Source: Azospirillaceae bacterium (GTDB lineage: Bacteria > Pseudomonadota > Alphaproteobacteria > Azospirillales > Azospirillaceae). Taken from it: 64,000 nt of DNA. The notes under the pieces were generated by a model. The model searched no databases. It was not told where the DNA came from and was given only the letters and a program-made list of their open reading frames with translations. Positions 30,808 through 44,904 of this stretch are shown here, in pieces (position 1 is the first letter of the stretch; each line of letters opens with the position of its first letter). Location of the stretch: the NCBI GenBank assembly GCA_028283825.1, contig JAPWJW010000004.1, positions 314,292 to 378,291 on the forward strand. The letters run 5' to 3'. The position numbers and the translations under genes were made by a program.

Positions 30808-31725
30808 TTACTTGCCCAGCTGGCCCGGGATGTGGCTTTGCTGCTGGGTCAGGTACCAGTCCGCCATTTCCTCGCGGGTGGCCCACCAGACGCCGGGCAG
30901 CGACTGGGCGTGCTGGATGAACTCCCGCAACGCACGGACGCGGTGGGCGCGGCCGGAAACGTGGGGATGCAGGCCCACGTTCATGATGCGGGCGGTCTTC
31001 GCACCCTCGGCATACAGCACGTCCAGTTCCTCGATCAGCGCGTCGCGGAACTGGTCGGTGGTGAAGTTCTTGCGCGTGATGAAGGTGAAGTCGTTGATCT
31101 CGTTGGAATAGGGCGTGGCCACGATGGGGCCCTTGTCGGTGCGGATCATGAACGGCTGATCGTCGTTCATGATGTCGCAATAGAACTTGAAGCCCTGTTC
31201 CGCCAGGATGCCGGCGGTGTTCAGCGTGCCGCGCAGCGACGACGACAGCCAGCCCTTGGGCCGGCGGCCCACGTGCTTTTCATACATCTCGATGGAACGC
31301 AGGATGATTTCGCGTTCCTTCTCCGGCGCATGGGCGAAGTTGGTCAGCAACTCGCCCTGCTCGTAATTATGCGCCAGCAGTTCCCAGCCGCGTTCCAGGC
31401 AGGCGTCCACCATGGCCTTGCGGCGTTCGAAGGTGACGGCGTTGGTGGTGCAGCTGGCCTTCACGCCCAGTTCGTCGAACAGGTCGTACAGGCGCCAGAT
31501 GCCGACGCGCTGGCCGTATTCACGCCAGGTGTAGTTCGGGAAGTCCGGGGTGTTACCGGGCAGGATGTCGGGCAGGATGGCGGGGCCGCCGGCATAGTAG
31601 GGCTTGTCCGTGTCCTTCGTCAGATCCCAGGTTTCCAGGTTGAAGGTCAGGATCAGCGCGACGCGCTTGCCTTCCGGCCAGGCCAGCGGCTTGCGCTGCG
31701 GCAAGGGGACGTAATCGTATTCCAT
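30808..31725 (-). CDS. PuuE/NodB-fold polysaccharide deacetylase-like hydrolase (copy 1)
   Basis: This 305-residue protein has the NodB-like fold with the long N terminus of the allantoinase PuuE group. Features are VALILTFNLETW (strand 1 with metal acid), REYGQRVGIWRLYDLFDELG, LLAHNYEQGE (metal His region), GWLSSSLRGTLNT and the C-terminal GLHPHVSGRAHRVRALREF. PuuE-type members hydrolyse cyclic amides or ureides rather than sugars. The start at 31725 has GGGAG ten bases before; an upstream frame crosses repeat copy D. It is last gene of the cluster, with two paralogues at 38458 and 39389. Confidence 0.85.
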   Translation of the reverse strand: MEYDYVPLPQRKPLAWPEGKRVALILTFNLETWDLTKDTDKPYYAGGPAILPDILPGNTPDFPNYTWREYGQRVGIWRLYDLFDELGVKASCTTNAVTFERRKAMVDACLERGWELLAHNYEQGELLTNFAHAPEKEREIILRSIEMYEKHVGRRPKGWLSSSLRGTLNTAGILAEQGFKFYCDIMNDDQPFMIRTDKGPIVATPYSNEINDFTFITRKNFTTDQFRDALIEELDVLYAEGAKTARIMNVGLHPHVSGRAHRVRALREFIQHAQSLPGVWWATREEMADWYLTQQQSHIPGQLGK

Positions 31726-31799
31726 GACTGAGCTACTCCCTGCTTGTGGCGCCCGGCCTTCCCCGGACGGACAGCCTGTAATCCCCGCATACTCATGTG

Positions 31800-31945
31800 C
31801 CTCAGACGCCGGCGGGCCATCCGGCCCTTGGCTATCCTCGTTTCGCGGTCCGCCTTCGGCTCCCCACAAAACTGCGGCGGCCGCAGTCGCGGCCTAGAAT
31901 GCCAATAGGTGATTGAGGGCAATCCCCACTGCCCTCAACCACCGC
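31800..31945 (-). repeat. Interspersed modular repeat, copy D (reverse)
   Basis: Read on the minus strand: a head hairpin (TTGAGGGC ... GCCCTCAA), CTAGGCCGCGACTGCGGCCG, GTGGGGAGCCGAAGGCGGAC, AACGAGGATAGCCAAG, then GCCGGCGTCTGAGG. It lies inside the catabolic cluster between the isomerase-like gene and deacetylase copy 1. It could act as a transcript-processing or partial-termination site there. Confidence 0.7.
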
Positions 31946-31964
31946 ACTGTCGCTTTAATTAACC

Positions 31965-32744
31965 TCAGAACTCTTCCAGCAGACGGCCCAGGCCGAAAAT
32001 CTTGTCCTGTATGCCGCAGGCGCGCAGGGCGTGCCAGTAGGTGGCCGTGTTGATGGCGATGACCGGCTTGCCCAGCCACAGCTCGGCGGCGGCGGCGAGG
32101 CGCACCATGGACAGGTTGGTGCCGACCTGCACGATGGCGTCGACGTCGTCGCCGTCCAGCTTCTTCAGCACCTCGCGCAGTTCAGGTTCCTGCACCTGGG
32201 CGATGGCGGTCCAGCTGGGGCACTGCAAGGGGGTGTCGCGCACCACGTCGAAGCCGTTGTCGCCCAGGAAGCGGGTGACCTCACGGTTGGCCGTGGGGAA
32301 GTAGGGGGAGACGAAGGCCACCCGCTTGATGCCGCCGTAGGCGCGCAACGCGGCGGCCACGGATTCCGACCCGATGGAGGCGCCGACGTCGGTGACGTCA
32401 CGGATGCGCTGCTGGAACGCCTCCGACCCCTTCTGGCCGCCATAGAAGGTGATGGCCGACATGCCCATGACCAGATAGTCGGGCTTGCAGGTCAGGACGC
32501 CCTTCACCGCGTCGATGGTGTTATCGGAAATCAGGGTAGTGCCCATGCGGAAGGTCTCATCCGAGACCGCCTGGGCATCGTCCACGATGATGCGGCTGTA
32601 GTGGTTGGTGACGCCATAGGGGCGCATCGCCTCCATATCCGGCTGCACCGTGGTGTTGGTGGACGGGCCCAGGACACCCAGCTTCAGGCGCCAACCCTGG
32701 GCGTCACGGCCGGGAACGTACCGATCTTTGCGCGCGATGGTCAT
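31965..32744 (-). CDS. Maleate isomerase/arylmalonate decarboxylase-like protein of the Asp/Glu racemase superfamily
   Basis: This 259-residue protein has the two-domain Asp/Glu racemase fold: LGVLGPSTNTTVQPDMEAMRP, LVMGMSAITFYGGQKGSE, VAFVSPYFPTANREVTRFLG and AIVQVGTNLSMVRL. The first and third segments are those of maleate isomerase and arylmalonate decarboxylase. Aligned by eye, neither usual catalytic Cys is present: the first position is in MGMSA and the second is in VQVGT. A decarboxylase-like, isomerase or ligand-binding role remains open. The start overlaps the monooxygenase stop by 4 bases. Confidence 0.75.
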   Translation of the reverse strand: MTIARKDRYVPGRDAQGWRLKLGVLGPSTNTTVQPDMEAMRPYGVTNHYSRIIVDDAQAVSDETFRMGTTLISDNTIDAVKGVLTCKPDYLVMGMSAITFYGGQKGSEAFQQRIRDVTDVGASIGSESVAAALRAYGGIKRVAFVSPYFPTANREVTRFLGDNGFDVVRDTPLQCPSWTAIAQVQEPELREVLKKLDGDDVDAIVQVGTNLSMVRLAAAAELWLGKPVIAINTATYWHALRACGIQDKIFGLGRLLEEF

Positions 32745-33934
32745 TGGATGCCCTCTTCCTGTTTCAGGCTGCCGAACATGGACTGGGTGATCAGGTACTG
32801 GCGGCGGGCGACGGGGTCGTTGACCAGCCGTTCCATCTCCGCATGGCGCTTGCGATGGCCGGCCGCCTGGCCTTCCCGCATGAATTCCATGTTCTTGATG
32901 GTCTGCGCCTGGGTGAAGTCGTGCGTCACCGTCCGCCGCTGACGGTCGAACCGCGACAGCAGGGCATCGGCATCGCCACCGTTGTAAGCCGCCACCAGCT
33001 TGGCACACAGGTTGAAGGCATCGTGGATGCCGCTGTTCATGCCGAAGCCGCCGATCGGGTTGTTCAAATGGGCGGCGTCGCCGATGATCAGCACCCGGTC
33101 CTGGCGGAACGACTTCGCCACCCGCTGGTGCACGCGATAGATGGTGCGGTGGTGGGTCTTGACCTCATCCGTCAGGCCGATCAGCCCGCCGAACACCGCG
33201 TTCTTCTTCTCATCCGACACCAGCATCTGGTCCGAGACATCGCCCGCCGGCACCAGGATGCGCCACAAGGACGGCACGCGCAGCAGCACCAGCCATTCGG
33301 TGGCGTCCGACACGTAGTTCACATGGCACAGGCCGTCGATGTACTTCTCCAGCGGGGTTTCCGTCGTCAGGCACAGGAACTTTTCCGGGTACGTGAACCC
33401 GTCGAATTCCACGCCCAGCCACTTGCGCACCAGGCTGCTGGCGCCGTCGGCGCCGATCAGGTAGTCGCCGCGCACCTTTTCCAGGCTGACCGGCGTTTCC
33501 GCCGTCACCGTCACGCCGTCCGAATCCTGTTCGAAATGCACCAGGCGGTGGTTGAACAGCACCTCCGCGTTCGGCTCATTCTCCAGCTTGGTCGCCAGCA
33601 GGCGGGACAAATGGTACTGCTCACATTGGACGCGGAAGGGATACCGCGTGATGTCCGACAGTTCCGACATGTCGAAGGAATAGACATCGCCGCTGCCCCG
33701 GTCGCGGAACTGGTAGACCGGCGCCTTCAGGCCGCGTTCCAGCAGGGTCGGCGTGATGCCCAGGGTGTCCAGCATCTCAAGCGTCGGCGGGTGCAGGGTG
33801 GAGGCGCGCAGGTCCATGGCGCAGTCCGGCCCCGCCTCCAGCAACACCACCTCGATCCCGTGGCGGGCAAGGTAATAGGCCGCGACCGTGCCGACAGGCC
33901 CCGCGCCCGCGATGATAACCTTCGTCTTTTTCAT
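32741..33934 (-). CDS. FAD-dependent aromatic-ring monooxygenase (class A flavoprotein)
   Basis: This 397-residue flavoprotein has the FAD-binding GxGxxG (VIIAGAGPVGTVAAYYLA), the DG motif (LIGADGASSLVRKWLG) and the second FAD motif (VLIIGDAAHLNNPIGGFGMN). These define PHBH-like hydroxylases, which also include ring-opening pyridine monooxygenases. The start at 33934 follows AGGTGGTTGC. The gap to the upstream lyase gene (185 bp) may hold a second promoter. It is translationally coupled to the isomerase-like gene, so the two steps are probably consecutive. Confidence 0.88.
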   Translation of the reverse strand: MKKTKVIIAGAGPVGTVAAYYLARHGIEVVLLEAGPDCAMDLRASTLHPPTLEMLDTLGITPTLLERGLKAPVYQFRDRGSGDVYSFDMSELSDITRYPFRVQCEQYHLSRLLATKLENEPNAEVLFNHRLVHFEQDSDGVTVTAETPVSLEKVRGDYLIGADGASSLVRKWLGVEFDGFTYPEKFLCLTTETPLEKYIDGLCHVNYVSDATEWLVLLRVPSLWRILVPAGDVSDQMLVSDEKKNAVFGGLIGLTDEVKTHHRTIYRVHQRVAKSFRQDRVLIIGDAAHLNNPIGGFGMNSGIHDAFNLCAKLVAAYNGGDADALLSRFDRQRRTVTHDFTQAQTIKNMEFMREGQAAGHRKRHAEMERLVNDPVARRQYLITQSMFGSLKQEEGIQ

Positions 33935-34119
33935 GCAACCACCTGTCATTCCGGGTGCACAGGATTTGCGGGAACAGAATTCGCACCGCGATTATTTTGC
34001 GGCCGAACCGATCATTCCCCGCGAACCAACACCAGTTCTTTATGTGCCCAAGTATCCATTAGGCGGGGCGGGCCGTCCTGGACGGCCACGGCCATAACCG
34101 CCTAGTGGATATGGCCCCT

Positions 34120-35082
34120 TCAGATGCCGCCGGGGCCGACACCCCAGCCAGGGCCGGTACCGTCGGCGACAAAGCCCTTGGGCAGGCCGGCATCGGGGGT
34201 GAATCCATAAAGTTCAACGCCCGGCAGCGCGTCCTTCACGATGGTGCGGACGGTCAGCAGCTTGTCCAGGTCAATGCCGGTGGACACGCCCGAGGCCTCC
34301 AGCATGAACACCAGATCCTCGGTGACGATATTGCCGGAGGCGCCGGGCGCGAACGGGCAGCCGCCGATGCCGCCCAGGCTGCTGTCCAGGGTGGTGATGC
34401 CTTCCTCCAGCGCCGCGTAGGCGTTGGCCAAGCCCTGGCCCCGGGTGTTGTGCAGGTGGACACCGGTGCAGGCCGCCGCCCCCACCACGCCGCGCACCTG
34501 GCGGATCAGGCGGCGCACCTGGGCCGGGTTGCCGTAGCCGGTGGTGTCGGACAAGCCGACCTCGTCACAGCCGGCGGCCATCAACGCCTCCGCCAGGGAC
34601 AGCACGCGGGCCTCCGGCACCATTCCTTCCAGGGTGCAGCCGAAGGCGGTGGACAGCCCGCCCTCGAACTTCGGCCGCTGGTCGGCCGGCAGGCTTTTGA
34701 TCAGGTCGGCGATGCGGCGCGTTTCCTCGATCATCTGGACATGCGTGCGGTTGACGTTGCGCAGGCTGTGCGTCTCACTGACCGACAGGGGGATGGTGAT
34801 CTTGTGGGCGCCGGCCGCCACCGCACCCTCCGCCCCCCGGAAGTTGGGCACCAGCACCGCCACCGTCAGGCCGGGCAGGGTGCGGGCGTAGGCCACGATC
34901 TCCGCCGTATCGGCCAGCTGGGGCAGGATCCTGGCCGGAACGAAGGACCCGACCTCGATCTCGCGCACGCCGGCGGCGTATTCCGCCGCGATCCAGGCCT
35001 TCTTGGCCGCCGTCGGCATGATGGGGCTGATGCTTTGCAGGCCGTCGCGGGGGCCGACCTCGCTGATTTCCACGTGCGCCAT
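34120..35082 (-). CDS. HMG-CoA lyase-like aldolase (CoA-thioester lyase)
   Basis: This 320-residue TIM-barrel protein has DRE-TIM/HMG-CoA lyase signatures: EVGPRDGLQS with catalytic Arg-Asp, the metal HxH in GVHLHNTRGQGLANAY, and the catalytic Cys loop GGIGGCPFAPGASGNI. The family cleaves 3-hydroxyacyl-CoA thioesters. Paired with a CaiB transferase it could cleave a citramalyl-CoA-like ester to acetyl-CoA or propionyl-CoA plus a 2-oxoacid. It begins 3 bases after the CaiB-type gene stop. Confidence 0.88.
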   Translation of the reverse strand: MAHVEISEVGPRDGLQSISPIMPTAAKKAWIAAEYAAGVREIEVGSFVPARILPQLADTAEIVAYARTLPGLTVAVLVPNFRGAEGAVAAGAHKITIPLSVSETHSLRNVNRTHVQMIEETRRIADLIKSLPADQRPKFEGGLSTAFGCTLEGMVPEARVLSLAEALMAAGCDEVGLSDTTGYGNPAQVRRLIRQVRGVVGAAACTGVHLHNTRGQGLANAYAALEEGITTLDSSLGGIGGCPFAPGASGNIVTEDLVFMLEASGVSTGIDLDKLLTVRTIVKDALPGVELYGFTPDAGLPKGFVADGTGPGWGVGPGGI

Positions 35083-35085
35083 GGC

Positions 35086-36315
35086 TCAGGCCTCCTCAGT
35101 TTCGGCGACGATGCCACGCGCCAGCAGGTCGGCGATGGTGTCCGGCGAATACCCCGCCTCGGCCAGGACGGCGCGGGTGTCCTGGCCCGGCCGGGCCAGG
35201 TCGCGCTGCTTGCCGATGCGGCGACCGTCCAGTGAGATGGGCAGGGACGGCAGGCGGGTTTCGGTGCCGTCGGGCAGGGTCACATCGACCAGGCCGCCGC
35301 CCTCCACCAGCTGCGGATCCTCGAACATCTCTTCCGGCTTGGCGACGGGGGCGAAGGGCAGGCCCACTTTTTCCAGCAGCGGCAGCAGCTCATCCCGGGT
35401 GTAGCCGGCCACCAGGGCCTGGACGCGCGGGATGATGATGTCGCGGGCCTTCACCCGGCCGTTGTTCTTCTCAAACGCCGGGTTGCCGCCCAGATCGTCC
35501 AGGCCGAAGGCCTGGCAGAAGGCGCGCCACTGGCCGTCGGTCACCACGCCGACGAACACCTGCTGTTCGTCCTTGGTGGTGAACAGCTCATAGATCGCCC
35601 AGGCGCTGATGCGCACGGGCATGGGCCGGGCCGGCTGGCCGGTCACCGCGTACTGGGCCATGTGCTGGCCCACCAGGAAGATGCAGTTCTCAAACAGGGC
35701 GCTGGTGATGCTGGCCCCCTTGCCCGTGGTGGCGGGGCCCTGCCAGCCGCGCTGCATCAACGCCGCCAGCACGCCGATGACGCCGAACAGGCCGCCCATC
35801 ACGTCGATGACGGAGGCGCCGGCGCGCAAGGGCCGGCCGGGCGGGCCCGTCATGTAGGCAAGGCCGCCCATCATCTGCGCCACCTCATCCAGGGCGGCGC
35901 GTTCCTGGTAGGGGCCGGACAGGAAACCCTTGGCGGAGCAATGGACCAGGCCGGGGTTCAGTTGGCGCAGGGCCTCGGCGCCCAGGCCCAGCTTGTCCAT
36001 GGCGCCGGGACGGAAGTTTTCCACCATGACGTCGGCGCCGGCCACCAGGTCGGTCACCAGCTTCAGGCCTTCCGGCGACTTCATGTCCACGCACAGGCTG
36101 CGCTTGCTGCGGCCGTACATGGGGAAGTAACCGGCGCCGGAGCCCAGCAGGCGGCGGGTGTTGTCACCGCCGATGGGTTCGATCTTCAGCACGTCGGCGC
36201 CCAGATCGCCCAGCACCATGCCCACCGTGGGGCCCATCACCATGTGGGTGAATTCCACCACCTTCAGGCCCGCCAGGGGCAGCGCTTCAGTGGGAATCGT
36301 GTCGTTATGCGTCAT
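35086..36315 (-). CDS. CaiB/BaiF family (class III) CoA-transferase
   Basis: This 409-residue protein has class III CoA-transferase features: the N-terminal LAGLKVVEFTHMVMGPTVGM, LGADVLKIEP, MVENFRPGAMDKLGL, and the catalytic Asp in QERAALDEVAQMMGG. It moves CoA between carboxylates without covalent CoA intermediates on Cys. The ATG 36315 (AGGTTCGATC upstream) matches the family N terminus; an upstream in-frame start inside leuD is not credible. Its position between the hydro-lyase and the lyase suggests it activates the hydration product. Confidence 0.92.
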   Translation of the reverse strand: MTHNDTIPTEALPLAGLKVVEFTHMVMGPTVGMVLGDLGADVLKIEPIGGDNTRRLLGSGAGYFPMYGRSKRSLCVDMKSPEGLKLVTDLVAGADVMVENFRPGAMDKLGLGAEALRQLNPGLVHCSAKGFLSGPYQERAALDEVAQMMGGLAYMTGPPGRPLRAGASVIDVMGGLFGVIGVLAALMQRGWQGPATTGKGASITSALFENCIFLVGQHMAQYAVTGQPARPMPVRISAWAIYELFTTKDEQQVFVGVVTDGQWRAFCQAFGLDDLGGNPAFEKNNGRVKARDIIIPRVQALVAGYTRDELLPLLEKVGLPFAPVAKPEEMFEDPQLVEGGGLVDVTLPDGTETRLPSLPISLDGRRIGKQRDLARPGQDTRAVLAEAGYSPDTIADLLARGIVAETEEA

Positions 36316-36323
36316 GATCGAAC

Positions 36324-36980
36324 CTAAAGGGTGGGTACGGGCAGCGCCCACGGCGTGGCGGCGCGGTAATCGGCCTCGAAGGACTGGATGGCCGGCAGGC
36401 GCTTCAGCGTCAGGCCGATGGCGTCCAGCCCTTCCAGCAGCATGTCGCGGTCGGCCGGCGACAGGGTGAAGGGGTAGGTTCCGGGGTCGCTGCCCAGGTG
36501 CGGACCGGTCAGCAGGCCCTGGCGCAGATCGACCGTCAGGCGGGCGGGGGCGGGATCGTCGGATGTCGCCTGGCCGGCAGCCGTGGCCAGCGCCGCCACC
36601 GCGTCGGCCGGCAGGGTCACGGGCAGGATGCCGTTGCGCACGCAGTTGCCGTGGAAGATGGCGCCGAAGCTGGGCGCCACGATGCAGCGTACGCCCCATT
36701 CCTTCAGCGCCCACACCGCGTGTTCGCGCGACGAGCCGCAGCCGAAGTTGGACCCGGCCAGCAGGATGGTGGCCTGGCGGAAGGGCGCGCGGTTCAGGAT
36801 GAAGTCAGGGTTTTCCGTGCGCGCCGCCACGTCGGCGTAACGCCAGTTGGCGAACAGGCCGCCGGACAGGCCGGTCTTGCCCACCGTCTTCATCTCCCGC
36901 GAGGGGATGATGGCGTCGGTGTCGATGTTCTGGCGCTGCAAGGGGGCGGCGACGCCGGTCAGGGTGACGAACGGTTCCAT
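36324..36980 (-). CDS. leuD: LeuD-type hydro-lyase small subunit
   Basis: This 218-residue swivelling-domain subunit has QNIDTDAIIPSREMKTVG, the LeuD core SNFGCGSSREHAVWALKEWG and NGILPVTLP. In the leucine pathway it dehydrates and rehydrates isopropylmalate with LeuC. The context (CoA-transferase, lyase, amidases, no other leu genes) suggests a different substrate such as a maleate or citraconate type diacid. It begins 4 bases after leuC. Confidence 0.85.
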   Translation of the reverse strand: MEPFVTLTGVAAPLQRQNIDTDAIIPSREMKTVGKTGLSGGLFANWRYADVAARTENPDFILNRAPFRQATILLAGSNFGCGSSREHAVWALKEWGVRCIVAPSFGAIFHGNCVRNGILPVTLPADAVAALATAAGQATSDDPAPARLTVDLRQGLLTGPHLGSDPGTYPFTLSPADRDMLLEGLDAIGLTLKRLPAIQSFEADYRAATPWALPVPTL

Positions 36981-36984
36981 GGTC

Positions 36985-38394
36985 TCAATCCATCAGGTCG
37001 CGGACGTCGGCGATGCGGCCGGCGATGGCCGACGCGGCGACGCTGGCCGGGCTGGCCAGGTGGGAGCGCGTGCCGGGACCCTGGCGGTTCTCGAAATTGC
37101 GGTTGGTGGAGGTGATGACCCGCTGGCCGGCGCCGAAATGCTCCCCACCCGCGAAGAAGCACATGGAACAGCCGGCCTCCCGCCATTCGAACCCGGCATC
37201 CAGGAACACGCGGTCCAGGCCCTCGGCTTCCGCCGCAGCCTTCACCTGCATGGATCCCGGCACGACGATGGCGCGCACGCCCCGCGCCACGTGCCGGCCC
37301 TTCACGATGGCGGCGGCGGTGCGCAGGTCCGACAGGCGGCTGTTGGTGCAGCTGCCGATGAAGGCGGCGTCGATGGCCAGGTCCGCCAGACGATCGCCCG
37401 GGTTCAGGCCCATATAGGCCAGGGCGCGGCGCTGGGCCTCGCGGTTGTTGGGGTCGGGATCGGCCGCCGGGTCCGGCACCTGGCCCGTCACCGCCATGGC
37501 ATGCTGCGGGCTGGTGCCCCAGGTGACGACGGGCGCCACCTCGGTGCAGTCCAGTTCGATTTCCTTGTCGAAGACGGCGTCGGCGTCGCTGCGCAGGTCA
37601 GCCCAGGCGACCACCGCGCGGTCCCAGTCCGCACCCTTGGGCGCGAAGGGACGGCCGGCCAGCCAGGCCACCGTCTTGTCGTCCGGCGCGCACAGGCCGG
37701 TCCAGGCGGCGAACTCCACCGCCATGTTGCACAGGGTCATGCGCGCCTCGACCGCCATGGCCTCCACCACCGGGCCGGCGAATTCGATGACATAGCCGCT
37801 GCCCCCCGCCGCCGTATGCCGGCCGATCAGGGTCAGCACCAAATCCTTGGCGGTGACGCCGGGCGCCAGGGCGCCGGTCAGGGTGACGCGCATGCGTTTC
37901 GGCCGGCGCACCGCCAACGTCTGGGTCGCCAGCGCGTGCTCACCCTCGGTGGAGCCGATGCCCCAGGCGAGCGCGCCCAGGCCGCCTTGCGTGCAGGTAT
38001 GGCTGTCAGGGCAGACCACCGTCAGGCCCGGCAGGGTCAGGCCCTGTTCCGGGATGACGACGTGGACGATGCCCTGGCGCGGGTCGCCCAAATCGAACAC
38101 CTGGATGCCGGCGGCATTGGCGGCGGCGCGGGTTTCCTGGATGAAGGCCTTGCCGCCCGGCATCAGGGTATCGTCGCTGCGGCCCGGCAGGGTGTCGACG
38201 ATATGGTCCATGCAGACGAAGGCCTGGGCCGGGTTGCGTACCGTGCGCCCGGCCTCGCCCAGGCTTTTCAGGGCGACGGAGCCCGTGCGCTCATGCAGCA
38301 GCACGCGGTCGACATACAAGAGGTCGGTCCCATCGCCCAAATCGGCGACGCGGTGCCGATCCCAGATCTTCTCCACCAGCGTCTTGCCGGGCAT
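36985..38394 (-). CDS. leuC: LeuC-type hydro-lyase large subunit (aconitase family, 4Fe-4S)
   Basis: This 469-residue aconitase-superfamily subunit opens KTLVEKIWDRH and has CPDSHTCTQGGLGALAWGIG. The cluster Cys ligands lie in IGSCTNSR and GCSMCFF. The residues after the CSMC ligand pair (FFAGGEHF) differ from the usual LeuC sequence (CSMCLAMN), and this loop lies near the substrate pocket. True isopropylmalate isomerase is therefore not assured; a maleate, citraconate or dialkylmaleate hydratase is an alternative. A hairpin with a minus-strand T-run precedes the gene. Confidence 0.87.
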   Translation of the reverse strand: MPGKTLVEKIWDRHRVADLGDGTDLLYVDRVLLHERTGSVALKSLGEAGRTVRNPAQAFVCMDHIVDTLPGRSDDTLMPGGKAFIQETRAAANAAGIQVFDLGDPRQGIVHVVIPEQGLTLPGLTVVCPDSHTCTQGGLGALAWGIGSTEGEHALATQTLAVRRPKRMRVTLTGALAPGVTAKDLVLTLIGRHTAAGGSGYVIEFAGPVVEAMAVEARMTLCNMAVEFAAWTGLCAPDDKTVAWLAGRPFAPKGADWDRAVVAWADLRSDADAVFDKEIELDCTEVAPVVTWGTSPQHAMAVTGQVPDPAADPDPNNREAQRRALAYMGLNPGDRLADLAIDAAFIGSCTNSRLSDLRTAAAIVKGRHVARGVRAIVVPGSMQVKAAAEAEGLDRVFLDAGFEWREAGCSMCFFAGGEHFGAGQRVITSTNRNFENRQGPGTRSHLASPASVAASAIAGRIADVRDLMD

Positions 38395-38422
38395 GAGGCA
38401 CCTGTTCTCAACAAAGAAAAGC

Positions 38423-38450
38423 GGGACCGGCCGGTCGTGCGGCCGGCCCC
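38423..38450 (-). terminator. Hairpin/attenuator inside the catabolic operon
   Basis: An 11-bp stem with one mismatch (GGGACCGGCCG with CGGCCGGCCCC) and a 6-nt loop is followed on the minus strand by GCTTTTCTTTG. It lies between the stop of deacetylase copy 2 and the LeuC start. It would reduce downstream expression or mark the end of one transcription unit. Confidence 0.65.
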
Positions 38451-38457
38451 GTACGGT

Positions 38458-39375
38458 TTACTTGCGCCAGGCGTCCAGGATGGCGCCGCCGGTCATGGCG
38501 CGGACGCCGGGCCGGGCCAGCGCCTGTTCCAGGCTGTCGGCCAGGGGACGGATGCGGTAGGCCTGGCCCGAGATGTGCGGGCGCAGGGTCAGCGACAGCA
38601 CGCGGCCGCCGAAGCGGTCGGCCTCATCCACCAGCCAGTCGGCGGAATCGGCCACCTGGGCCACCCATTCCTCTTCCGGACGACGGTAGGTCACCAGGAT
38701 CTGCCAGTCGTCCAGCATGTCGGACAGCGGCATGGCCGTCAGGTCGCCGGCGGTGGTGCGGAAAGCCGTGGGCAGTTCATCGTGCGCCCAGTCGGCGAAC
38801 CATTCCACCCCGCCCTCCTTCAGGCGATCCGGTGTGGCGAAGCCCTCGGCACGGGCGGGGCTGAGCCAGCCCTGGGGTGCGGTACCGGTGACATCCTTCA
38901 GCGTCGCCAGGGTGTCGGCGATGGCCTTGCGTTCCGCCCCCTCATCCATGGCGGTGTGGTGGATGGTGTCGGTGTCCCAGCCATGGGCGCCGATCTCATG
39001 CCCCGCCGCCTGAATGTCGCGGATCAGGGTGGGGTAGCGTTCCGCCACCGCCCCTTGCGCCCAGAAGGTGGCGGGGATGCCCAGCCGGTCCAGCACCTTC
39101 AGGATGCGGTAGACGCCGACACGGTTGCCGTAGTCGCGGGTGGTGTAGTGGCGCAGGTCCGGGTAGGGCGTCTGCATGGCGCCCGGCGCCTTGAAGGGTT
39201 TGCCGGACGGGTTCAGGGGGAAGAATTCCAGCAGGACGTTGACCCACAGGGCCACCTTCGCCCCATCGGGCAGCACCAGCGGCGCGCGGTCGCGCACGGG
39301 CGAGGCGTCGTAACGCTCATGGTCGGGGCCCAGGCGGCGCTTGGGGTAGACCAGGTAGTCATCGGGAAGCGGCAT
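38458..39375 (-). CDS. PuuE/NodB-fold polysaccharide deacetylase-like hydrolase (copy 2)
   Basis: This 305-residue protein has VALWVNVLLEFFPL, RDYGNRVGVYRILKVLDRLG, the metal His segment IGAHGWDTDTIHHTAMDEG, GWLSPARAEGFATPDRLKEG and LRPHISGQAYRIRPLADSL. These match the PuuE-like branch more than chitin or peptidoglycan deacetylases. The ATG 39375 begins MPLPDDYLVYPKRRLGP. The gene follows copy 3 by 13 bases. A cyclic amide or imide is a plausible substrate. Confidence 0.85.
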   Translation of the reverse strand: MPLPDDYLVYPKRRLGPDHERYDASPVRDRAPLVLPDGAKVALWVNVLLEFFPLNPSGKPFKAPGAMQTPYPDLRHYTTRDYGNRVGVYRILKVLDRLGIPATFWAQGAVAERYPTLIRDIQAAGHEIGAHGWDTDTIHHTAMDEGAERKAIADTLATLKDVTGTAPQGWLSPARAEGFATPDRLKEGGVEWFADWAHDELPTAFRTTAGDLTAMPLSDMLDDWQILVTYRRPEEEWVAQVADSADWLVDEADRFGGRVLSLTLRPHISGQAYRIRPLADSLEQALARPGVRAMTGGAILDAWRK

Positions 39376-39388
39376 CGTTGATCCCCCC

Positions 39389-40339
39389 TCAGCCGGCAAC
39401 GGGATTGAAGCCCGACCCGCCGCGCGCGTTGCCGCGCCGGGCGATGTCGGCGACGGCGCCGTCATAATGGTTGGCCAGGTAGAACTCCGCGATTTCGGCG
39501 GCGGTGGTGATCCAGATGTCGTCCTTGTGGCCGGTGATGTATTCCAGCGCCTCCTGGAACGGGCCGATGCGGTTGGGGTGCGACACCAGATAGGCGTGCA
39601 GCGGGATGCACATGACGGTGCCGCTTTCCTCACCCTCTTCCAGCAACTGGTCGAAGTGGCGCTTCAGCACGTCGGCATAGGCGCGGGGGCTCTGGTTGTA
39701 GACGCCATAGGTGATGACGTCGTTGACCTCCAGGCTGTAGGGCATGGAGATCAGGCGGCCGTCCTTCACCTTCACCGGCTGCGGCTGGTCATCCTGGAAC
39801 AGGTCGCAGGTGTACCAGAAGCCGTATTCGGCCAGCAGGTCCATGGTCTTTTCGGTGTGGGTCAGGGCGGGGGCCAGGTAACCCCGGATGCGCTGGCCCG
39901 TGGCCGCCTGCACCGACCGGATGCTGTCTTCCAGCACGGCGCGCTCCTGCGCCTCATCCATGCCGTAGGAATAGCGGGTGTTGTAGATGCCGTGGCTGAA
40001 GAATTCCCAGTTGCGGGCCACGCACGCCTCGATGATCTCCGGGTGATGGTCCAGCATCGCCACGGAGAGCGAGATGGAGCCGCGCACGCCGGCCTTGTCC
40101 ATCACCTCCATCAGGCGCCAATGGCCCACCCGGTTGCCCCAGTCGCGCGCCGAATAGGGCACGATGTCGGGGGACGGGGCGGCCCAGGGCTTGCGGCTGG
40201 GGTTGCCGGGCGGATCGAACTCATAGAACTCGATGTTCGGGGCCACCCAGAAGGCCAACTTCTTGCCGCCCGGCCAGACGATCTTGGGGCGTTCCTTGTA
40301 CGGCCAGTAGTCGTAGAGGTTGGGATCGCGATGGGTCAC
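39389..40339 (-). CDS. PuuE/NodB-fold polysaccharide deacetylase-like hydrolase (copy 3)
   Basis: This 316-residue protein starts at a GTG (40339) that overlaps the stop of the cysteine hydrolase (GTGA). Features are LAFWVAPNIEFYEF, RDWGNRVGHWRLMEVMDKAG, FFSHGIYNTRYSYGMDE, GYLAPALTHTEKTMDLLAEYG and IPLHAYLVSHPNRIGPF. The C-terminal HPHxSGxAxR motif of copies 1 and 2 is altered to HAYLVSHPNR, so substrate or role may have diverged. Confidence 0.85.
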   Translation of the reverse strand: MTHRDPNLYDYWPYKERPKIVWPGGKKLAFWVAPNIEFYEFDPPGNPSRKPWAAPSPDIVPYSARDWGNRVGHWRLMEVMDKAGVRGSISLSVAMLDHHPEIIEACVARNWEFFSHGIYNTRYSYGMDEAQERAVLEDSIRSVQAATGQRIRGYLAPALTHTEKTMDLLAEYGFWYTCDLFQDDQPQPVKVKDGRLISMPYSLEVNDVITYGVYNQSPRAYADVLKRHFDQLLEEGEESGTVMCIPLHAYLVSHPNRIGPFQEALEYITGHKDDIWITTAAEIAEFYLANHYDGAVADIARRGNARGGSGFNPVAG

Positions 40340-41031
40340 TTCTGCCCCCCCAGCGTCGCCAGATGGTCGATGGCCTCGGCCACGCCCACCACGTCGGCGT
40401 ACTTCAGCAGCAGGTCGGTCAGGTTGGCGTAGTGGTAGGACTCGTGCTTGTCGGCCACGCACTCTTCCGGAACGATGGTGCGGTAGCCGTGGGACAGGCT
40501 GTCCACCGCCGTGGCGCGCACGCAGCCGCTGGTGGACCCGCCGGTGATGACCACCGTGTCGATCTTGTGCCAGACGAGATAGCTGGACAGCTGCGTCTCA
40601 AAGAACGCGGACGGCATGCGCTTGGTGTACAGCAGATCGACGGCGTGATCGATTTCCACGCGCGGGTCGAAGGCGTGGCGGTCGCTGTCGTACTTGATGT
40701 TCTGCAGGCTGTCGGGCGTGTTGGTGCGCGTCCCCCAGACCCCGGCGTCACCGGCGTCGGCCTTATAGGCCACACGGGTCCAGATCACCGGCATGCCGGC
40801 CGCCCGCGCGGCGGCGGACAGGGCGTTGGTGTGGGCGATCTGGTCGGGATCGGTGACGTAGGCCGTCTTGGGGAACAGGTCGGGCCGGGTGTAGGCCTGC
40901 TGGAAATCAATGTTCACGATGGCCAGGCGCTGGCCGAAGCCGAACTTCGCCCGCGCAGGATTGGCCTTCACCTGCTCATACAATTGGCGGGCGGTCTTTT
41001 CTTCCCGCACCATGGTGCTTTCGAACCGCAT
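40336..41031 (-). CDS. Cysteine hydrolase, isochorismatase/N-carbamoylsarcosine amidase family (copy 1)
   Basis: This 231-residue amidase-like protein has the catalytic triad Asp42 (IVNIDFQQAY), Lys137 (YTKRMPSAF) and Cys170 (GSTSGCVRATAVDSLSHGY). Family members cleave maleamate, N-carbamoyl amides or nicotinamide. It is first gene of the leftward cluster, so it probably marks the promoter-proximal step; the promoter lies in 41032-41100. A paralogue is at 50655-51296. Confidence 0.9.
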   Translation of the reverse strand: MRFESTMVREEKTARQLYEQVKANPARAKFGFGQRLAIVNIDFQQAYTRPDLFPKTAYVTDPDQIAHTNALSAAARAAGMPVIWTRVAYKADAGDAGVWGTRTNTPDSLQNIKYDSDRHAFDPRVEIDHAVDLLYTKRMPSAFFETQLSSYLVWHKIDTVVITGGSTSGCVRATAVDSLSHGYRTIVPEECVADKHESYHYANLTDLLLKYADVVGVAEAIDHLATLGGQK

Positions 41032-41097: not shown

Positions 41098-41180
41098 CAT
41101 GCCCAGACCCCGCTTTGTCCGCAGGACGGATAGGGGGCCGAACGGCGGGGCGGGTGAACCGATGCGCAGGTGGGGATTTG
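41098..41180 (+). repeat. Repeat pair upstream of higBA, copy 1
   Basis: Similar sequence occurs at 44722-44800: GACCCCGCTTTGTCCGCAGG and GACGGATAGGGGGCCG, then GGGTGAACCGAT. Both copies precede higA-type operators and genes, so this is part of a duplicated TA locus. Confidence 0.65.
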
Positions 41181-41226
41181 GGCTGGAGCGTGGGGTGGGG
41201 ATTCCGCCGGGCGGATAGGGAAGCGC

Positions 41227-41276
41227 GTAGCATGGCGTGCTACATCACCATTGCCGGATGTTGCATGTCGTGCTAC
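41227..41276 (+). promoter_or_regulatory. Tandem operator-like palindromes upstream of higBA
   Basis: GTAGCATGGCGTGCTAC (41227-41243) and GTTGCATGTCGTGCTAC (41260-41276) share arms GTxGCA and TGCTAC. They are 33 bp apart, about three helical turns, and end 38 bases before higB. A third version lies before the higA fossil at 44875-44891. They are probable HigA binding sites for autorepression. Confidence 0.6.
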
Positions 41277-41314
41277 AAAACTGAGCGCCTGAGCGTTCGA
41301 CGGATCAGCCTCAC

Positions 41315-41596
41315 ATGATCCAAAGCTTTGTCGGCAAGATCGCCGAAGGAATCTGGACCGGCACGCTCAAGAAGGGCTTTCCGGCCGACGCCGTGCGACG
41401 GGCCGAACAGGCGCTGTACATGCTGTCAGCGGCGCCCAGCCTGGAAAGCCTGCGCAGTCCACCGGGCAACCGGCTGGAAGCGCTGTCCGGTGACCGGAAG
41501 GGCCAGCACAGCATCCGCATCAACGACCAGTGGCGGGTGTGCTTCCGCTGGCAGGATGGACATGCCCACGACGTGGAAATCGTCGATTACCATTGA
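41315..41596 (+). CDS. higB: HigB/RelE-family toxin
   Basis: This 93-residue RelE/ParE-fold mRNA interferase has the HigB signature SIRINDQWRVCFRW and HAHDVEIVDYH at the C terminus, with LESLRSPPGNRLEALSGDR in the middle. Toxin-first order followed by higA 11 bases later is typical of higBA. Two palindromic operators lie just upstream. Confidence 0.92.
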   Translation: MIQSFVGKIAEGIWTGTLKKGFPADAVRRAEQALYMLSAAPSLESLRSPPGNRLEALSGDRKGQHSIRINDQWRVCFRWQDGHAHDVEIVDYH

Positions 41597-41607
41597 ACGG
41601 ACTGATT

Positions 41608-41925
41608 ATGGATAAGACCGACATCGCCCAGTCGTTCAGGATGCGCCCCATCCACCCCGGCGAAATCCTGCGGGAACAGTTCATGGAGCCGCTGAACCTC
41701 ACCGCCGGAAAGGTGGCCAAGGCGTGCAACCTGCCGCGCAGCCGCATCGAGCGCGTGGCGGGAGAGGCGACGGACATCACGCCGGACACCGCCCTGCGCC
41801 TGGGCAAGTGCTTCAGCGTGGAGCCCGAGTTCTGGCTGAACCTCCAAAGCCTCTACAATCTGGCCCTGGCGCGGCAGAATGCCACCGACCTGGATGCCAT
41901 CCGGGTGTTGCGCGCGGCGGAGTAA
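41608..41925 (+). CDS. higA: HigA antitoxin (XRE-family)
   Basis: This 105-residue antitoxin has the HigA opening RPIHPGEILREQFMEPL, an XRE helix-turn-helix (TAGKVAKACNLPRSRIERVA, ITPDTALRLGKCFSVEP) and EFWLNLQSLYNLALAR. It neutralises HigB and represses the operon. Its first ~47 codons are duplicated at 44905. Confidence 0.93.
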   Translation: MDKTDIAQSFRMRPIHPGEILREQFMEPLNLTAGKVAKACNLPRSRIERVAGEATDITPDTALRLGKCFSVEPEFWLNLQSLYNLALARQNATDLDAIRVLRAAE

Positions 41926-41983
41926 ATGAAAGTTACGGTGTTTCAGTTTGAAGTTTCTTTTCCTTCGGCAGCAAACAAAGGAT

Positions 41984-42289
41984 TCATTTTTCTAATCGGG
42001 AAACCATAGAGGCCAGAGGACTTGTCGAGACATAGCACTCCTGCAATAGGACTCGCTGTGGATCAAGCATTGGACAGAATGGTGGCCGGACAGTTATTTC
42101 ATAACCAGCTTTACCCATACACTCCTGAATATAAGAAGCAGAAATTGAGTATGGCTCAAATGACGCCTCCTTGAATTCAACGATTGCCTGCATCTTACAT
42201 GAATGATACTGATAATAAGTAGCATTTGGGGTGATAAAAATATAAATTGCAACACCAGCTACAGGTATGAACCATAAAGCTCTATTCAT
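41984..42289 (-). CDS. Small low-GC single-pass membrane or secreted protein
   Basis: This 101-residue hypothetical protein has an N-terminal hydrophobic helix (ALWFIPVAGVAIYIFIT) and a soluble domain with four Cys (SCKMQ, QECMGK, FCPML, QECYV) that could form two disulfides if exported. Base composition is far more AT-rich than anywhere else in the window, indicating recent acquisition. No family recognised. Confidence 0.6.
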   Translation of the reverse strand: MNRALWFIPVAGVAIYIFITPNATYYQYHSCKMQAIVEFKEASFEPYSISASYIQECMGKAGYEITVRPPFCPMLDPQRVLLQECYVSTSPLASMVSRLEK

Positions 42290-42754
42290 GACGGTCACGT
42301 CCCAGGTCGTGGAATAGGAGCGCGTCCACCAGGCAAGACTTGGTTGTCAGCGTAGCTGGCTGAAGGTCTGACCTAGCGAGCGGTTATCGCGGCTCTTTCG
42401 CCGTCACGTCTCCTAAACGAGAAAACCCACGATGACCGACCCGATGATGGCGCCATGCGTGATGCTTGAAAAGAGTGCTTGCGCTCATGCTCTCAGAGAG
42501 ATGATCAGCTTAGCTGTTCCGTGGCTGATTGAGATGGAGGTGTAGAGGTTGACTTGCGCCAACCACGGACCGAATACCTAGTCTTACACCCACCCCTTCA
42601 AATGTTAGTCAACCTGACTATTCCCCAACGACTAAATCGAACGGGGTGCCAAAAAAAATCAACTTTAAGGTGGACGAATACCAGATGGGCAGTCCTTCAG
42701 GCCCAGCCCCGGCAACCCGGTGTCGATACGATCCCCCTGCTTGACCGCGCACCC
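42290..42754. other. Low-GC intergenic stretch in the accessory island
   Basis: It has mixed composition and no supportable gene. AT-rich bases at 42590-42670 lie upstream of the mazEF-like promoter. It is probably debris from insertion events. Confidence 0.3.
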
Positions 42755-42783
42755 GTAACGCGTTACGACTTGTAACGCGTTAC
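42755..42783 (+). promoter_or_regulatory. Two perfect palindromic operators of the mazEF-like pair
   Basis: GTAACGCGTTAC occurs twice, at 42755-42766 and 42772-42783, with starts 17 bp apart. The second ends 15 bases before the antitoxin ATG. Such tandem palindromes are the usual autoregulatory sites of type II TA operons. Confidence 0.75.
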
Positions 42784-42798
42784 GGAAGGGTGAAGGCG

Positions 42799-43005
42799 AT
42801 GGCCAGCGTGGCGGAACGGATGCAAGCGATGCGGGCACGGCGGCGTGCCGATGGCCTGCGCGAGGTGCGGTTGGTGGTGCGGGACGTCCGTGCCGCCGCC
42901 ACCCGGCGCCGGATTGCCGACCAGGTGGCCCGCCTGTCGCCCACGCCGGAAAAGGACGCCCTGGACTGGAACGAACAGGTTGGCGAGTTTGATGAGGCGC
43001 GGTGA
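42799..43005 (+). CDS. MazE-like antitoxin (DUF3018 type)
   Basis: This 68-residue antitoxin is Arg-rich at the N terminus (RMQAMRARRRADGLREVRLVV) with an acidic C-terminal tail (SPTPEKDALDWNEQVGEF), as in short antitoxins paired with MazF/PemK toxins. The ATG at 42799 has GGAAGGGTGAAGG upstream. It overlaps the toxin gene by 14 bases. Confidence 0.85.
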   Translation: MASVAERMQAMRARRRADGLREVRLVVRDVRAAATRRRIADQVARLSPTPEKDALDWNEQVGEFDEAR

Positions 43006-43321
43006 CGTGGTGGTGGTCGCCGCTACCGGCAACTACGGCAAGCCCCGACCGGCAGTGGTGGTGCAGACCGATGCCTTCCCTGAAACCCACGCCTTCGTCA
43101 TCATTTGCCAGATGACCAACGAATTGGTGGATGCGCCGGATTTCCGGATCGATATCGAGGCCGATCCGCGCAATGGTCTGCGAGAGCCGTCGCAGATCAT
43201 GGTGGACAAGCCAGTGACGGTGCGGCGGGAGCGCATTGGGCAAGTCATCGGCCACCTCGACCCGAATGAAATCGCCAAGCTGGACGCCGCCATCGCCCTG
43301 GTGATGGGGCTGGCGGACTAA
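42992..43321 (+). CDS. MazF/PemK-family toxin (endoribonuclease)
   Basis: This 109-residue toxin has the CcdB/MazF fold signatures RRGDVVVVAA, GKPRPAVVVQTD and VDKPVTVRRERIGQVIGHL. It cleaves mRNA when free of its antitoxin. The stop codon is the first base of a repeat element interrupted by an IS110. Confidence 0.9.
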   Translation: MRRGDVVVVAATGNYGKPRPAVVVQTDAFPETHAFVIICQMTNELVDAPDFRIDIEADPRNGLREPSQIMVDKPVTVRRERIGQVIGHLDPNEIAKLDAAIALVMGLAD

Positions 43322-43405
43322 TACCAAATTGCGTTGAGTGGAACTCATCGCGGTTTGGTATCGGCGGCGACTGCCGCCGCGCGCCGTAAGGTGCGGAAGC
43401 CAAGC
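43321..43405 (+). repeat. Interspersed modular repeat, copy E, left part (split by IS110)
   Basis: The head hairpin ATACCAAATTGCG...TTTGGTAT (8-bp outer stem plus inner GCG/CGC and TGAGT/ACTCA pairs) is followed by CGGCGGCGACTGCCGCCG and GTGCGGAAGCCAAGC, matching the first half of copies A-D. The second half resumes at 44551 beyond the IS110. Confidence 0.6.
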
Positions 43406-43413
43406 AACTGTCT

Positions 43414-44361
43414 TCATGAGGCGTGAGCCGGATCGTATTCGCGCTGTTGCCTGAGGATTGAGTTTGCGAGGACGATGATTTTCCGCATGAGTGCGGTGAG
43501 AGCGACCTTGGGCTTTTTGCCGGCGGCGATGAGCTTTTTGTAGAAGGCGGCCAGGGGTGGGTTGTGGCGGCTGGCGACGACGGCGGCCATGTAGAGAACG
43601 TTACGGACGGCGGGTCTTCCGCCGTAGATGCTCCGGGGCCCGTCGCGTTTTCCGCTTTGATTGTCCATGGGTGCGACGCCGGCGAGGGCGGCAGCCTGTT
43701 GGCGTGTAAGGGCGCCCAGTTCGGGCATATGGGCCAGCGCGGTACTTGCGAAGACAGGGCCTATGGCGGGGATGGAGCGGAGGAATTTGTTCTTGGTCTT
43801 CAAGACCTCCGAGGCGGCGATGTGGCTGGCGATGCGCTTATCGACCAGGACGATCTGAAGGGCGATGGATTTCAATCGTCGCTTGGCCAGTCGGCGCAGT
43901 TCGGCGTTCTCCAGCCGTCTGGCCTGGTTGGTGATCGTGGTCCGATCCTCAAGCAATTGGCGGCGGTATGTTGTCAGCTCAGCCAACGCTTCCCGGTCTT
44001 TGTCCGGCTTGTGGTCTTCCCCTTTGATCGCCTTGGCATAGGCTGCGATCATGCGGGCGTCGAGCCGATCATTCTTGGCCCAACGACCGGAAGCTTTGGC
44101 GTAGTAGCGAACCTTGCGGGGGTCGACGATCCGAACTGGGATCTCGGCCTTCACCATGGTCTGAGCGACGGGCCGTTCATAGCCACCGCTGGCCTCCATG
44201 ACGATCTGCACGGTGCGTTTCCGGCAGCGTTGCCGCAAAGCCACGTAGCCAGCCGGGGAATTCTCAATTTGGAAGACATCCCCGGTTTCATCGTCGAAGC
44301 CGTCGAGACGGTCCTTGCTGACATCCAGGGCGATGATAGAGTCGTTCTGCGCCATCTTCAT
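43414..44361 (-). CDS. IS110-family transposase (bridge-RNA-guided recombinase type)
   Basis: This 315-residue transposase has a RuvC-like DEDD N-terminal domain (Asp13 in IIALDVSKDRLDGF, Glu in IVMEASGGYE, Asp pair in KNDRLDARMIAAYAK). Its C-terminal Tnp domain has IPAIGPVFASTALAHMPE, AALAGVAPMD and the catalytic Ser region NQSGKRDGPRSIYGGR. The frame is intact. The start is ATG 44361 or 44355. Confidence 0.93.
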   Translation of the reverse strand: MKMAQNDSIIALDVSKDRLDGFDDETGDVFQIENSPAGYVALRQRCRKRTVQIVMEASGGYERPVAQTMVKAEIPVRIVDPRKVRYYAKASGRWAKNDRLDARMIAAYAKAIKGEDHKPDKDREALAELTTYRRQLLEDRTTITNQARRLENAELRRLAKRRLKSIALQIVLVDKRIASHIAASEVLKTKNKFLRSIPAIGPVFASTALAHMPELGALTRQQAAALAGVAPMDNQSGKRDGPRSIYGGRPAVRNVLYMAAVVASRHNPPLAAFYKKLIAAGKKPKVALTALMRKIIVLANSILRQQREYDPAHAS

Positions 44362-44550
44362 ACTCCCAGCCTTGCGCATGCGGGGCGGCGACCCCGTGCA
44401 ACTGTTCGGGCTAATGAAGGGGCCGACCGGAGAGCCTTGCTTGGCTACGGAGCCGGAACTTCCCGCCGTTGGAACGGTCTTCCGGTCGGATCACGGGCTG
44501 GGGCATGCCCCAGCCCGTGACGGCGCTACTTTACGCAGATTGGGAAGATA
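44362..44550 (-). ncRNA. Candidate IS110 bridge RNA region
   Basis: IS110-group elements encode a bridge RNA in the non-coding end upstream of the transposase. Here that end is about 190 bases long and rich in inverted repeats, including a 30-bp perfect palindrome at 44491-44520. The RNA itself, its limits and loops are not demonstrated. Confidence 0.4.
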
Positions 44551-44635
44551 CAAGCCGCCGGATGGCGGCGCCGGCGCCTGAGGGCGATGAGCCAGGCCGT
44601 AGGTCGGGATCATCGCTACCTGGTATAAGGTGTCC
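44551..44635 (+). repeat. Interspersed modular repeat, copy E, right part
   Basis: CAAGCCGCCGGATGGCGGCG then CCGGCGCCTGAGGG matches the latter half of copies A-C (AAGCCAGCGGATGCTGGC, then CGGCGTCTGAGG). A tail hairpin GCGATGA ... TCATCGC follows. Confidence 0.6.
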
Positions 44636-44891: not shown

Positions 44892-44904
44892 AATTGGTCT
44901 CATC

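Follow-up and report, generated by a model that had tools for sequence, protein, structure and literature searches.

Results and Discussion

Gene Content and Packing of the Locus

The stretch of DNA considered here, referred to as the window, comprises 64 kb of a 620-kb contig (C4) in the 7.16 Mb, five-contig genome of an Azospirillaceae bacterium. An initial annotation described ten leftward genes at 30808-41031 (minus strand) and read them as one catabolic pathway; NCBIfam and Pfam profile matches bear out both the cluster and the families that were named. The ten genes are, as discussed below, two joined modules and not a single unit. Module A (34.1-41.0 kb) contains CysHyd1, PuuE_A, PuuE_B, LeuCD, CaiB and HmgL, and from its gene families and their neighbors we infer, with a probability of roughly 0.6, an operon for the catabolism of a maleimide-type cyclic imide that bears substituents. 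Module B consists of an FAD monooxygenase (FMO), a cysteine-less protein of the arylmalonate decarboxylase (AMDase) fold, MalIso, and PuuE_C (30.8-33.9 kb), to which an IclR-type regulator and a second cysteine hydrolase, CysHyd2, belong at 49-51.3 kb. With enzyme sets of this kind, bacteria of soil and water would open small nitrogen-containing rings and break the acids so formed down to common nutrients.

The seven genes from CysHyd1 to HmgL are tightly packed, with successive gaps of -4, 13, 63, 4, 8 and 3 bp (refined starts; that of PuuE_B taken from its translation). A gap of 185 bp then separates HmgL from FMO, which overlaps MalIso by 4 bp, and 239 bp lie between MalIso and PuuE_C.

CysHyd1 (40336-41031, minus strand as are all module A genes) is an isochorismatase-family amidase of the N-carbamoylsarcosine/maleamate amidase type (PF00857, 102 bits) and the candidate amic-acid hydrolase; its matches in the PDB include 26st (E 7e-32) and 3ot4 (E 2e-22). 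Residues D42, K137 and C170, which we take to be the Asp-Lys-Cys catalytic triad, are unchanged in all 8 aligned sequences. PuuE_A (39389-40339; TIGR03212, 124 bits, under the cut-off; PDB match 3cl6, E 7e-30) is the proposed cyclic-imide hydrolase, and seven of its homologs, 51-84% identical, adjoin a CysHyd gene. A second PuuE-like hydrolase, PuuE_B, follows at 38458-39375 (PF01522, 57.6 bits). TIGR03212 is the best NCBIfam model for all three PuuE-like proteins of the window (152.7, 82.8 and 124.2 bits for PuuE_C, PuuE_B and PuuE_A, E 1e-44 to 2e-23) and, judged by these profile matches, the three are related to the PuuE/polysaccharide deacetylase fold.

The large and small hydratase subunits, LeuC (36985-38394; TIGR00170, 587 bits, cut-off 560) and LeuD (36324-36980; TIGR00171, 194 bits, cut-off 116), both pass the family cut-offs for the isopropylmalate isomerase of leucine synthesis. 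They are followed by CaiB (35086-36315; PF02515, 346 bits), a family III CoA-transferase resembling succinate-glutarate transferases. Its best NCBIfam model, NF052585, scores 233 bits against a cut-off of 750, placing it outside the succinate-glutarate CoA-transferase family proper, and in the PDB 9br6 (E 4e-54) ranks second behind the unnamed 4ed9. The last gene of the module, HmgL (34120-35082), encodes an HMG-CoA-lyase-like enzyme (NF004283, 279 bits, above the cut-off of 246) that carries HNTRGQ where HDTYGQ is expected from alignments to 6nds and human 2cw6.

Recurrence of the Modules in Other Bacteria

In order to establish which of the ten genes belong together we compared 20 stretches around LeuC matches, 14 with a LeuC at least 69% identical to that of the window and 6 with a more distant one (L039-L044, three of them around the genome's own other copies). 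HmgL, CaiB, LeuD and LeuC occur together in 13 of the 14 close stretches (L026-L038), the remaining one (L045) ending at a contig edge, and their order is uniform in 11 of these 13, with L037 and L038 rearranged. Neither HmgL nor CaiB is present in any of the six stretches around a distant LeuC. CysHyd and PuuE_A share the stretch in 7 of the 13 (L031, L032, L033 and L035-L038) and in L045, and FMO, MalIso and PuuE_C are absent from all of these stretches. One genome (G067, loci L030 and L031) holds two copies of LeuCD-CaiB-HmgL. All seven module A genes are found on sphingomonad plasmids. An Acidiphilium plasmid has the full seven as well, with leuCD placed after PuuE_B.

Module B, in turn, occurs with no module A nearby. 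In Niveispirillum (L163) FMO-MalIso-PuuE_C is followed by IclR, a PrpB-like lyase, LeuD2 and LeuC2; in N. capsulatum (L160) CysHyd2, PuuE_C, an IclR-like gene, a lyase, FMO and MalIso are grouped, and the module B block is present in L165 as well. Because the modules recur apart, a single ten-gene pathway is rejected: FMO-MalIso-PuuE_C is a separately conserved module. The modules lie side by side on a Caulobacterales contig (L111), and some 56 kb of a Novosphingobium humi megaplasmid carry CysHyd2, LeuD2-LeuC2, PuuE_C, IclR, ADH, a lyase, HyuAB, FMO-MalIso, CaiB-HmgL-LeuD-LeuC, FAO, FRD and a methyltransferase, with PuuE_B-PuuE_A-CysHyd1 further along, after the methyltransferase. Compared with the HyuAB copies of the window genome, those of this megaplasmid are 84-88% identical. 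PuuE_C, at 80.6-84.2% identity, is encoded on seven Novosphingobium plasmid records, and six of these seven accessions, N. capsulatum being the exception, also match PuuE_A and HmgL among the matches listed.

Co-occurrence was surveyed in 385 genomes of the class, with stated cut-offs and p-values that ignore kinship. PuuE_A was matched in 39 genomes, HmgL in 36 and MalIso in 49; PuuE_A and HmgL are common to 12 genomes (expected 3.65, p 5e-5), PuuE_A and MalIso to 24 (expected 4.96, p 6e-15), and HmgL and MalIso to 17 (expected 4.58, p 6e-8). When the organism's own family is left out the shared genomes number 9, 21 and 14, respectively. Stricter identity cuts, picked after the lists had been seen, leave 22 genomes with PuuE_A and 9 with HmgL, of which 7 are in common (expected 0.51).

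The LeuCD Hydratase

The genome encodes four LeuC proteins in total, along with two weaker aconitase-type matches, so that the result that would have spoken for a purely biosynthetic role, a sole LeuCD copy, does not apply. In a 40-row tree, midpoint rooted and used for its clades alone, the window LeuC and 25 others form a clade of 26 rows (set 1) with support of 100/100, which does not include the genome's other copies. One of these, at C4:155866, falls among set-2 copies from Niveispirillum and from plasmids (100/99), and the remaining two lie elsewhere in the tree. Rows L001 and L007-L018 of the tree are 4.4-kb loci whose longer stretches (the window and L026-L038) do carry HmgL.

The LeuD of the window has the substrate loop PSREMKT in place of P[KA][QV]FL. 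Set-1 LeuD loops mostly read EMK(T) and those of archaeal-type LeuD xMK (the loop was not located in 3 of 16), with L037, L038 and L048 as exceptions; homoaconitase has Leu-Arg at this position. The loops of LeuD2 read RFLLI. The loop as proof of an acidic substrate is weakened by the Lys that is found here in ordinary LeuD also; we retain it as a weak pointer, consistent with an acidic substrate.

The second set on the window's own contig (C4:146.5-166.4 kb) comprises a GntR gene (by eye), HyuA, HyuB, a PrpB-like lyase, ADH, and then LeuC and LeuD. HyuAB are closest to caprolactamase CapAB and the lyase to PrpB, all below cut-off. UbiX-like and UbiD-like decarboxylase genes (by eye; L043 15104-17274) lie near this set.

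Two Alternative Lyase Ends

A profile search of genome contigs confirmed at least 574 PuuE_A relatives among 591 pattern stretches, and the best 80 loci were read. With identity limits applied, CysHyd is present in 72 of these, PuuE_B in 66, a PrpB-like lyase in 21, LeuC in 19, archaeal-type LeuC in 19, LeuD in 17, HmgL in 12, CaiB in 11 and HyuA in 6; PuuE_B lies less than 400 bp from PuuE_A in 64/80 loci and CysHyd in 51/80. In twelve loci an HmgL at 62-85% identity accompanies LeuC or CaiB, which we refer to as the HmgL branch, and in 18 a PrpB-like lyase is found with LeuC of the archaeal type, the PrpB branch. The two branches coincide in none of the 80 loci (expected 2.7, p 0.036; p 0.046 on the 50 full-length loci). 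This alternation suggests that a single hydrated maleate would be processed by either the HmgL or the PrpB-like branch, each a different way of ending the pathway.

Joint action of hydratase, lyase and imidases is most strongly indicated in Phenylobacterium sp. Root700 (L063), where LeuC (7320-8606), LeuD (8606-9106), the lyase (9103-9987), PuuE_A (9998-10945) and PuuE_B (10932-11846) overlap or abut. LeuD of the PrpB branch passes the LeuD/DmdB model TIGR02087 (175.8 bits, cut-off 108.95; both L063 and L095 pass), LeuC passes homoaconitase-family cut-offs, and the best model for the lyase is PrpB (296 bits, cut-off 354). It is this branch, and not the window, that has the arrangement of a dimethylmaleate hydratase and lyase, namely a LeuD/DmdB small subunit adjoining a lyase of the phosphoenolpyruvate (PEP)-mutase/isocitrate lyase type.

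Several features of these loci fall outside the two branches. In L076, L103, L105, L107, L108 and L048 (26562-30903) a second, more distant HmgL-like gene adjoins CaiB-like and HyuA/HyuB-like genes and may mark a third module of related kind. Downstream of PuuE_B in L114 (12674-16157) and L116 (11945-16407), VOC-fold genes occur in runs, together with a RidA-like gene, and membrane proteins of ∼220 amino acids with no Pfam match at 1e-5 recur in the islands (L047 9101-9760, L064 16535-17215).

Proposed Pathway and Its Alternatives

For module A we retain the reaction order of the initial annotation, in which an imide is opened, an amide hydrolyzed, a substituted maleate hydrated, CoA transferred and the product cleaved by a lyase; conserved or overlapping gene orders and the two lyase branches speak for it there. 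For the ten genes taken as one pathway it is given up. PuuE_A and/or PuuE_B would open the imide to an amic acid, from which CysHyd1 would take off ammonia to give a substituted maleate. LeuCD would hydrate the latter to a substituted malate, CaiB would convert this to a CoA ester, and the HMGL-like lyase would cut the ester into an acyl-CoA and a 2-oxoacid; with a methyl group on the carbinol carbon, the latter would be pyruvate. In other bacteria a PrpB-like lyase could act on the free acid in place of the CaiB and HmgL steps.

A number of observations weigh against this pathway. All three PuuE-like proteins fall below the TIGR03212 cut-off of 424.6, outside the PuuE allantoinase family, and no profile model for an imidase was found. 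The p-value for the alternation of the branches is weak and the loci are related to one another; a distant HmgL-like gene (39-43%) occurs in five more loci and, if it is counted, L076 holds both ends (expected 3.4-3.8). The genome studied here and plasmid loci L046, L047 and L161 hold both sets, and on the sphingomonad plasmids L046 and L047 both ends are present, each with its own LeuCD. Neither branch is in view in 50 of the 80 PuuE_A loci, 28 of them full-length (for example L120, L123 and L131 of Bacteroidota), and the imide module must therefore also serve another purpose. FAO, VOC proteins, a nitrilase and an SSS symporter among the neighbors are not explained by the pathway.

As to the substrate, the neighboring genes suggest that a disubstituted maleimide fits better than the earlier candidates; no gene pointing to methylpyridines, hydantoins or pyrimidines turned up among the neighbors, although no search aimed at one was made. 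A narrower form of our proposal, tentative at about one chance in three by our reckoning, names hematinic acid (2-methyl-3-(2-carboxyethyl)maleimide), which arises from heme and chlorophyll by oxidation, as the compound that module A breaks down, to pyruvate and glutaryl-CoA (HmgL branch) or glutarate (PrpB-like branch). The sister set of LeuCD2, PrpB-like lyase, ADH and HyuAB would act on methylvinyl- or methylethylmaleimide; these maleimides are the monopyrrole fragments of heme, bilins and chlorophyll. For a lyase to give glutarate and a 2-oxoacid, its malate substrate would need a carboxyethyl side chain; the imide would then be a carboxyethylmaleimide, which with an added methyl group is hematinic acid. 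The link to glutarate comes from a glutaryl-CoA-dehydrogenase-like gene, recognized by the DSG[YL]RS motif of that enzyme, which is present in 11 of the 80 PuuE_A loci: 9/18 of the PrpB branch and 0/12 of the HmgL branch (p 9e-6, kinship ignored), or 10/18 of the PrpB branch with looser lyase limits (p 3e-7). The other two loci are L114, with LeuC and a lyase just below the limit, and L113, with a lyase and no LeuC match. On a B. plantarii plasmid (L050) CaiB (NF052585, 542 bits against the cut-off of 750), the dehydrogenase and electron-transfer flavoprotein genes stand beside imidase genes, LeuCD and a lyase. Glutaryl-CoA as the product of the HmgL branch would fit both the absence of the dehydrogenase there and a window CaiB that is nearest to succinate-glutarate/HMG transferases. 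The occurrence of two LeuCD sets that differ in their loops, EMK(T) in one and RFLLI in the other, likewise counts in favor; the pair is found on the contig of the window and also on a Novosphingobium plasmid.

Against hematinic acid stands the observation that 6 of the 11 dehydrogenase loci are from Caulobacteraceae, a kinship that the p-value ignores. All 17 genomes tested, from two genera, have the dehydrogenase whether or not they have module A, so that it adds nothing for the window, and no glutarate or glutaryl-CoA gene was seen beside the window. No NCBIfam model names the dehydrogenase above cut-off, and among the 40 plasmid matches listed one record calls it gcdH, the others 'acyl-CoA dehydrogenase' or nothing. 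None of the six TonB receptors checked nearby is above any heme-receptor cut-off, and the Lys of the LeuD loop is shared with ordinary LeuD. The heme oxygenase family, present in 9 of 12 genomes (here at C4:89434) and away from the cluster, is uninformative.

Gene neighbors in related bacteria hint that the rings may be pigment fragments such as those of heme or chlorophyll. The broadest form of this idea, which we regard as somewhat more doubtful than hematinic acid itself, is that the genes constitute the lower half of bacterial tetrapyrrole mineralization: disubstituted maleimides from heme, bilins and chlorophyll would be opened, hydrated and cleaved, hematinic acid yielding pyruvate and glutaryl-CoA and the neutral methyl-vinyl/ethyl-maleimides passing through LeuCD2, the PrpB-like lyase and HyuAB, with an imidase for each fragment, carried on mobile islands that they share.

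Another substrate, citraconimide, is improbable in our estimation. It would be converted through citraconamate, citraconate, (R)-citramalate and citramalyl-CoA to pyruvate and acetyl-CoA, for which LeuCD, CaiB and an HMGL-like lyase are the minimum gene set required, and the formation and cleavage of citramalyl-CoA are known chemistry (Sct and Ccl of Chloroflexus). However, this route predicts neither the neighboring glutaryl-CoA dehydrogenase and glutarate transferase nor the PrpB-like alternative lyase, known relatives of which cleave 2,3-disubstituted malates. Less probable still is a glutarimide-type substrate, from which PuuE and CysHyd would yield glutarate directly, LeuCD and the lyases being a second, neighboring pathway. 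The glutarate genes near PuuE_A loci are accounted for in this way, and a PuuE-like imidase of Aspergillus, HxnM, opens a hydroxyglutarimide (PMC9304392). However, LeuC, LeuD and lyase genes overlap or abut the imidase genes, and HmgL-CaiB-LeuCD is grouped with them in other lineages. Finally, a chance assembly of leucine biosynthesis paralogs and unrelated hydrolases, with which the leucine-family scores of LeuC and LeuD would agree, is very improbable given four LeuC in the genome, the window copy in a separate clade, and a gene order kept in several lineages, a linkage that already contradicts it. Hydrolysis of the riboflavin/lumichrome ring was set aside; the hydrolases described in PMC12746152 have other sizes.

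Module B and the Flanking Regions

Module B, a second module with an inheritance of its own, would probably serve a related ring on which a monooxygenase must act first. FMO (32741-33934, minus strand) is a short form of the PHBH/MhpA type (FAD_binding_3, PF01494, 210 bits; best NCBIfam PRK08132, below cut-off). Module B may yet be a urate-type (hpx) cluster: HpxO is not among the best 25 of 82 models for this protein, but it is matched, under cut-off, by a further FMO that L161 and L165 carry. MalIso (31965-32744, minus; PF17645, 63 bits, cut-off 25.9) had been regarded as an ordinary relative of maleate isomerase and AMDase. HMMER alignments to these two enzymes place M95 and V207 or G208 at the catalytic Cys positions, and the usual cysteine mechanism is rejected for the window protein. 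The family alignment has 21 rows, the window protein being counted twice, and in the 20 distinct rows the first catalytic Cys is found in 0/20 and a Cys at or near the V207 position in 3/20. Up to six matches to this fold family occur in one genome.

PuuE_C (30808-31725, minus; TIGR03212, 152.7 bits, under cut-off) has CysHyd2 homologs, 62-72% identical to the window protein, adjoining or near it in L111, L160 and L161. CysHyd2 itself (50655-51296, minus; PF00857, 119.7 bits) and the IclR-type regulator (48958-49758, plus strand; 46-52% homologs in L111, L160, L161 and L163) belong to a group of related genes at 46.0-51.3 kb that the earlier reading overlooked. These genes lie to the right of a toxin-antitoxin/IS110 stretch (41315-45906) with HigB/HigA-like genes, a PemK-like gene (names by eye), an IS110-type transposase (43414-44361) and a 154-bp direct repeat found by repeat search. 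At 41114-45906 the start of the HigA-like gene is duplicated (the repeat, 92%), flanking the IS110-type transposase and PemK-like genes and splitting the catabolic region. Beyond it are a small protein (45975-46274, minus) paired with an S-adenosylmethionine methyltransferase (46271-47326, minus, start uncertain; 57% identical homolog in L165), with a like pair in L161, L165 and L183, and a FAD dehydrogenase resembling flavocytochrome c/tricarballylate dehydrogenase (47363-48763, minus; TIGR01813, 213 bits, cut-off 285). Relatives of the methyltransferase, flavoprotein, IclR and CysHyd2 recur with modules A and B in other genomes. Read by eye, the left end of the window (1-16037) carries genes resembling those for PQQ biosynthesis, as well as a PQQ-type alcohol dehydrogenase accompanied by cytochrome c; this is probably a locus for ordinary alcohol oxidation.

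Implications and Comparison with Known Systems

If the proposed function of module A is correct, genes now annotated as isopropylmalate dehydratase, polysaccharide deacetylase and HMG-CoA lyase form a cyclic imide pathway, and the annotation of many genomes would be corrected. Were hematinic acid the substrate, genes would be at hand to account for how maleimides from pigments produced in huge yearly amounts disappear, a question that purchasable or synthesizable substrates would make directly testable. The cysteine-free AMDase-fold family, linked to PuuE_A by co-occurrence, is worth examining for chemistry that is new to this fold. We found no description of this gene set in the literature, judged by titles and the beginnings of abstracts in a coverage that largely leaves out subscription journals.

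Parts of the proposed pathway resemble established systems. PuuE-type imidases are known cyclic imide hydrolases, and in cyclic imide catabolism (P. putida YZ-26 imidase; Aspergillus HxnM/HxnN) a PuuE-family imidase is likewise followed by an amide hydrolase (PMC9304392). Module A would add hydratase, CoA-transferase and lyase steps, by which the product would be cleaved and not passed on as a simple diacid. DmdAB and Dml, the dimethylmaleate hydratase and 2,3-dimethylmalate lyase of nicotinate fermentation, find their likeness in the archaeal-type LeuCD and PEP-mutase/isocitrate-lyase-family lyase of the 18 alternative-branch loci, whereas the window has a bacterial-type LeuCD, CaiB and HmgL, plus imide-opening genes. 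With the succinyl-CoA:citramalate CoA-transferase and citramalyl-CoA lyase of Chloroflexus the window shares a family III CoA-transferase and an HMGL-family lyase; it adds the LeuCD hydratase and imide hydrolases, and its CaiB is closer to succinate-glutarate transferase. The nic cluster for nicotinate, finally, with its maleamate amidase NicF and maleate isomerase NicE, also brings together a cysteine hydrolase, an FAD monooxygenase and an Asp/Glu-racemase-fold protein, but the ten genes of the window include no ring dioxygenase or deformylase family, and their isomerase-fold protein is without the cysteines.

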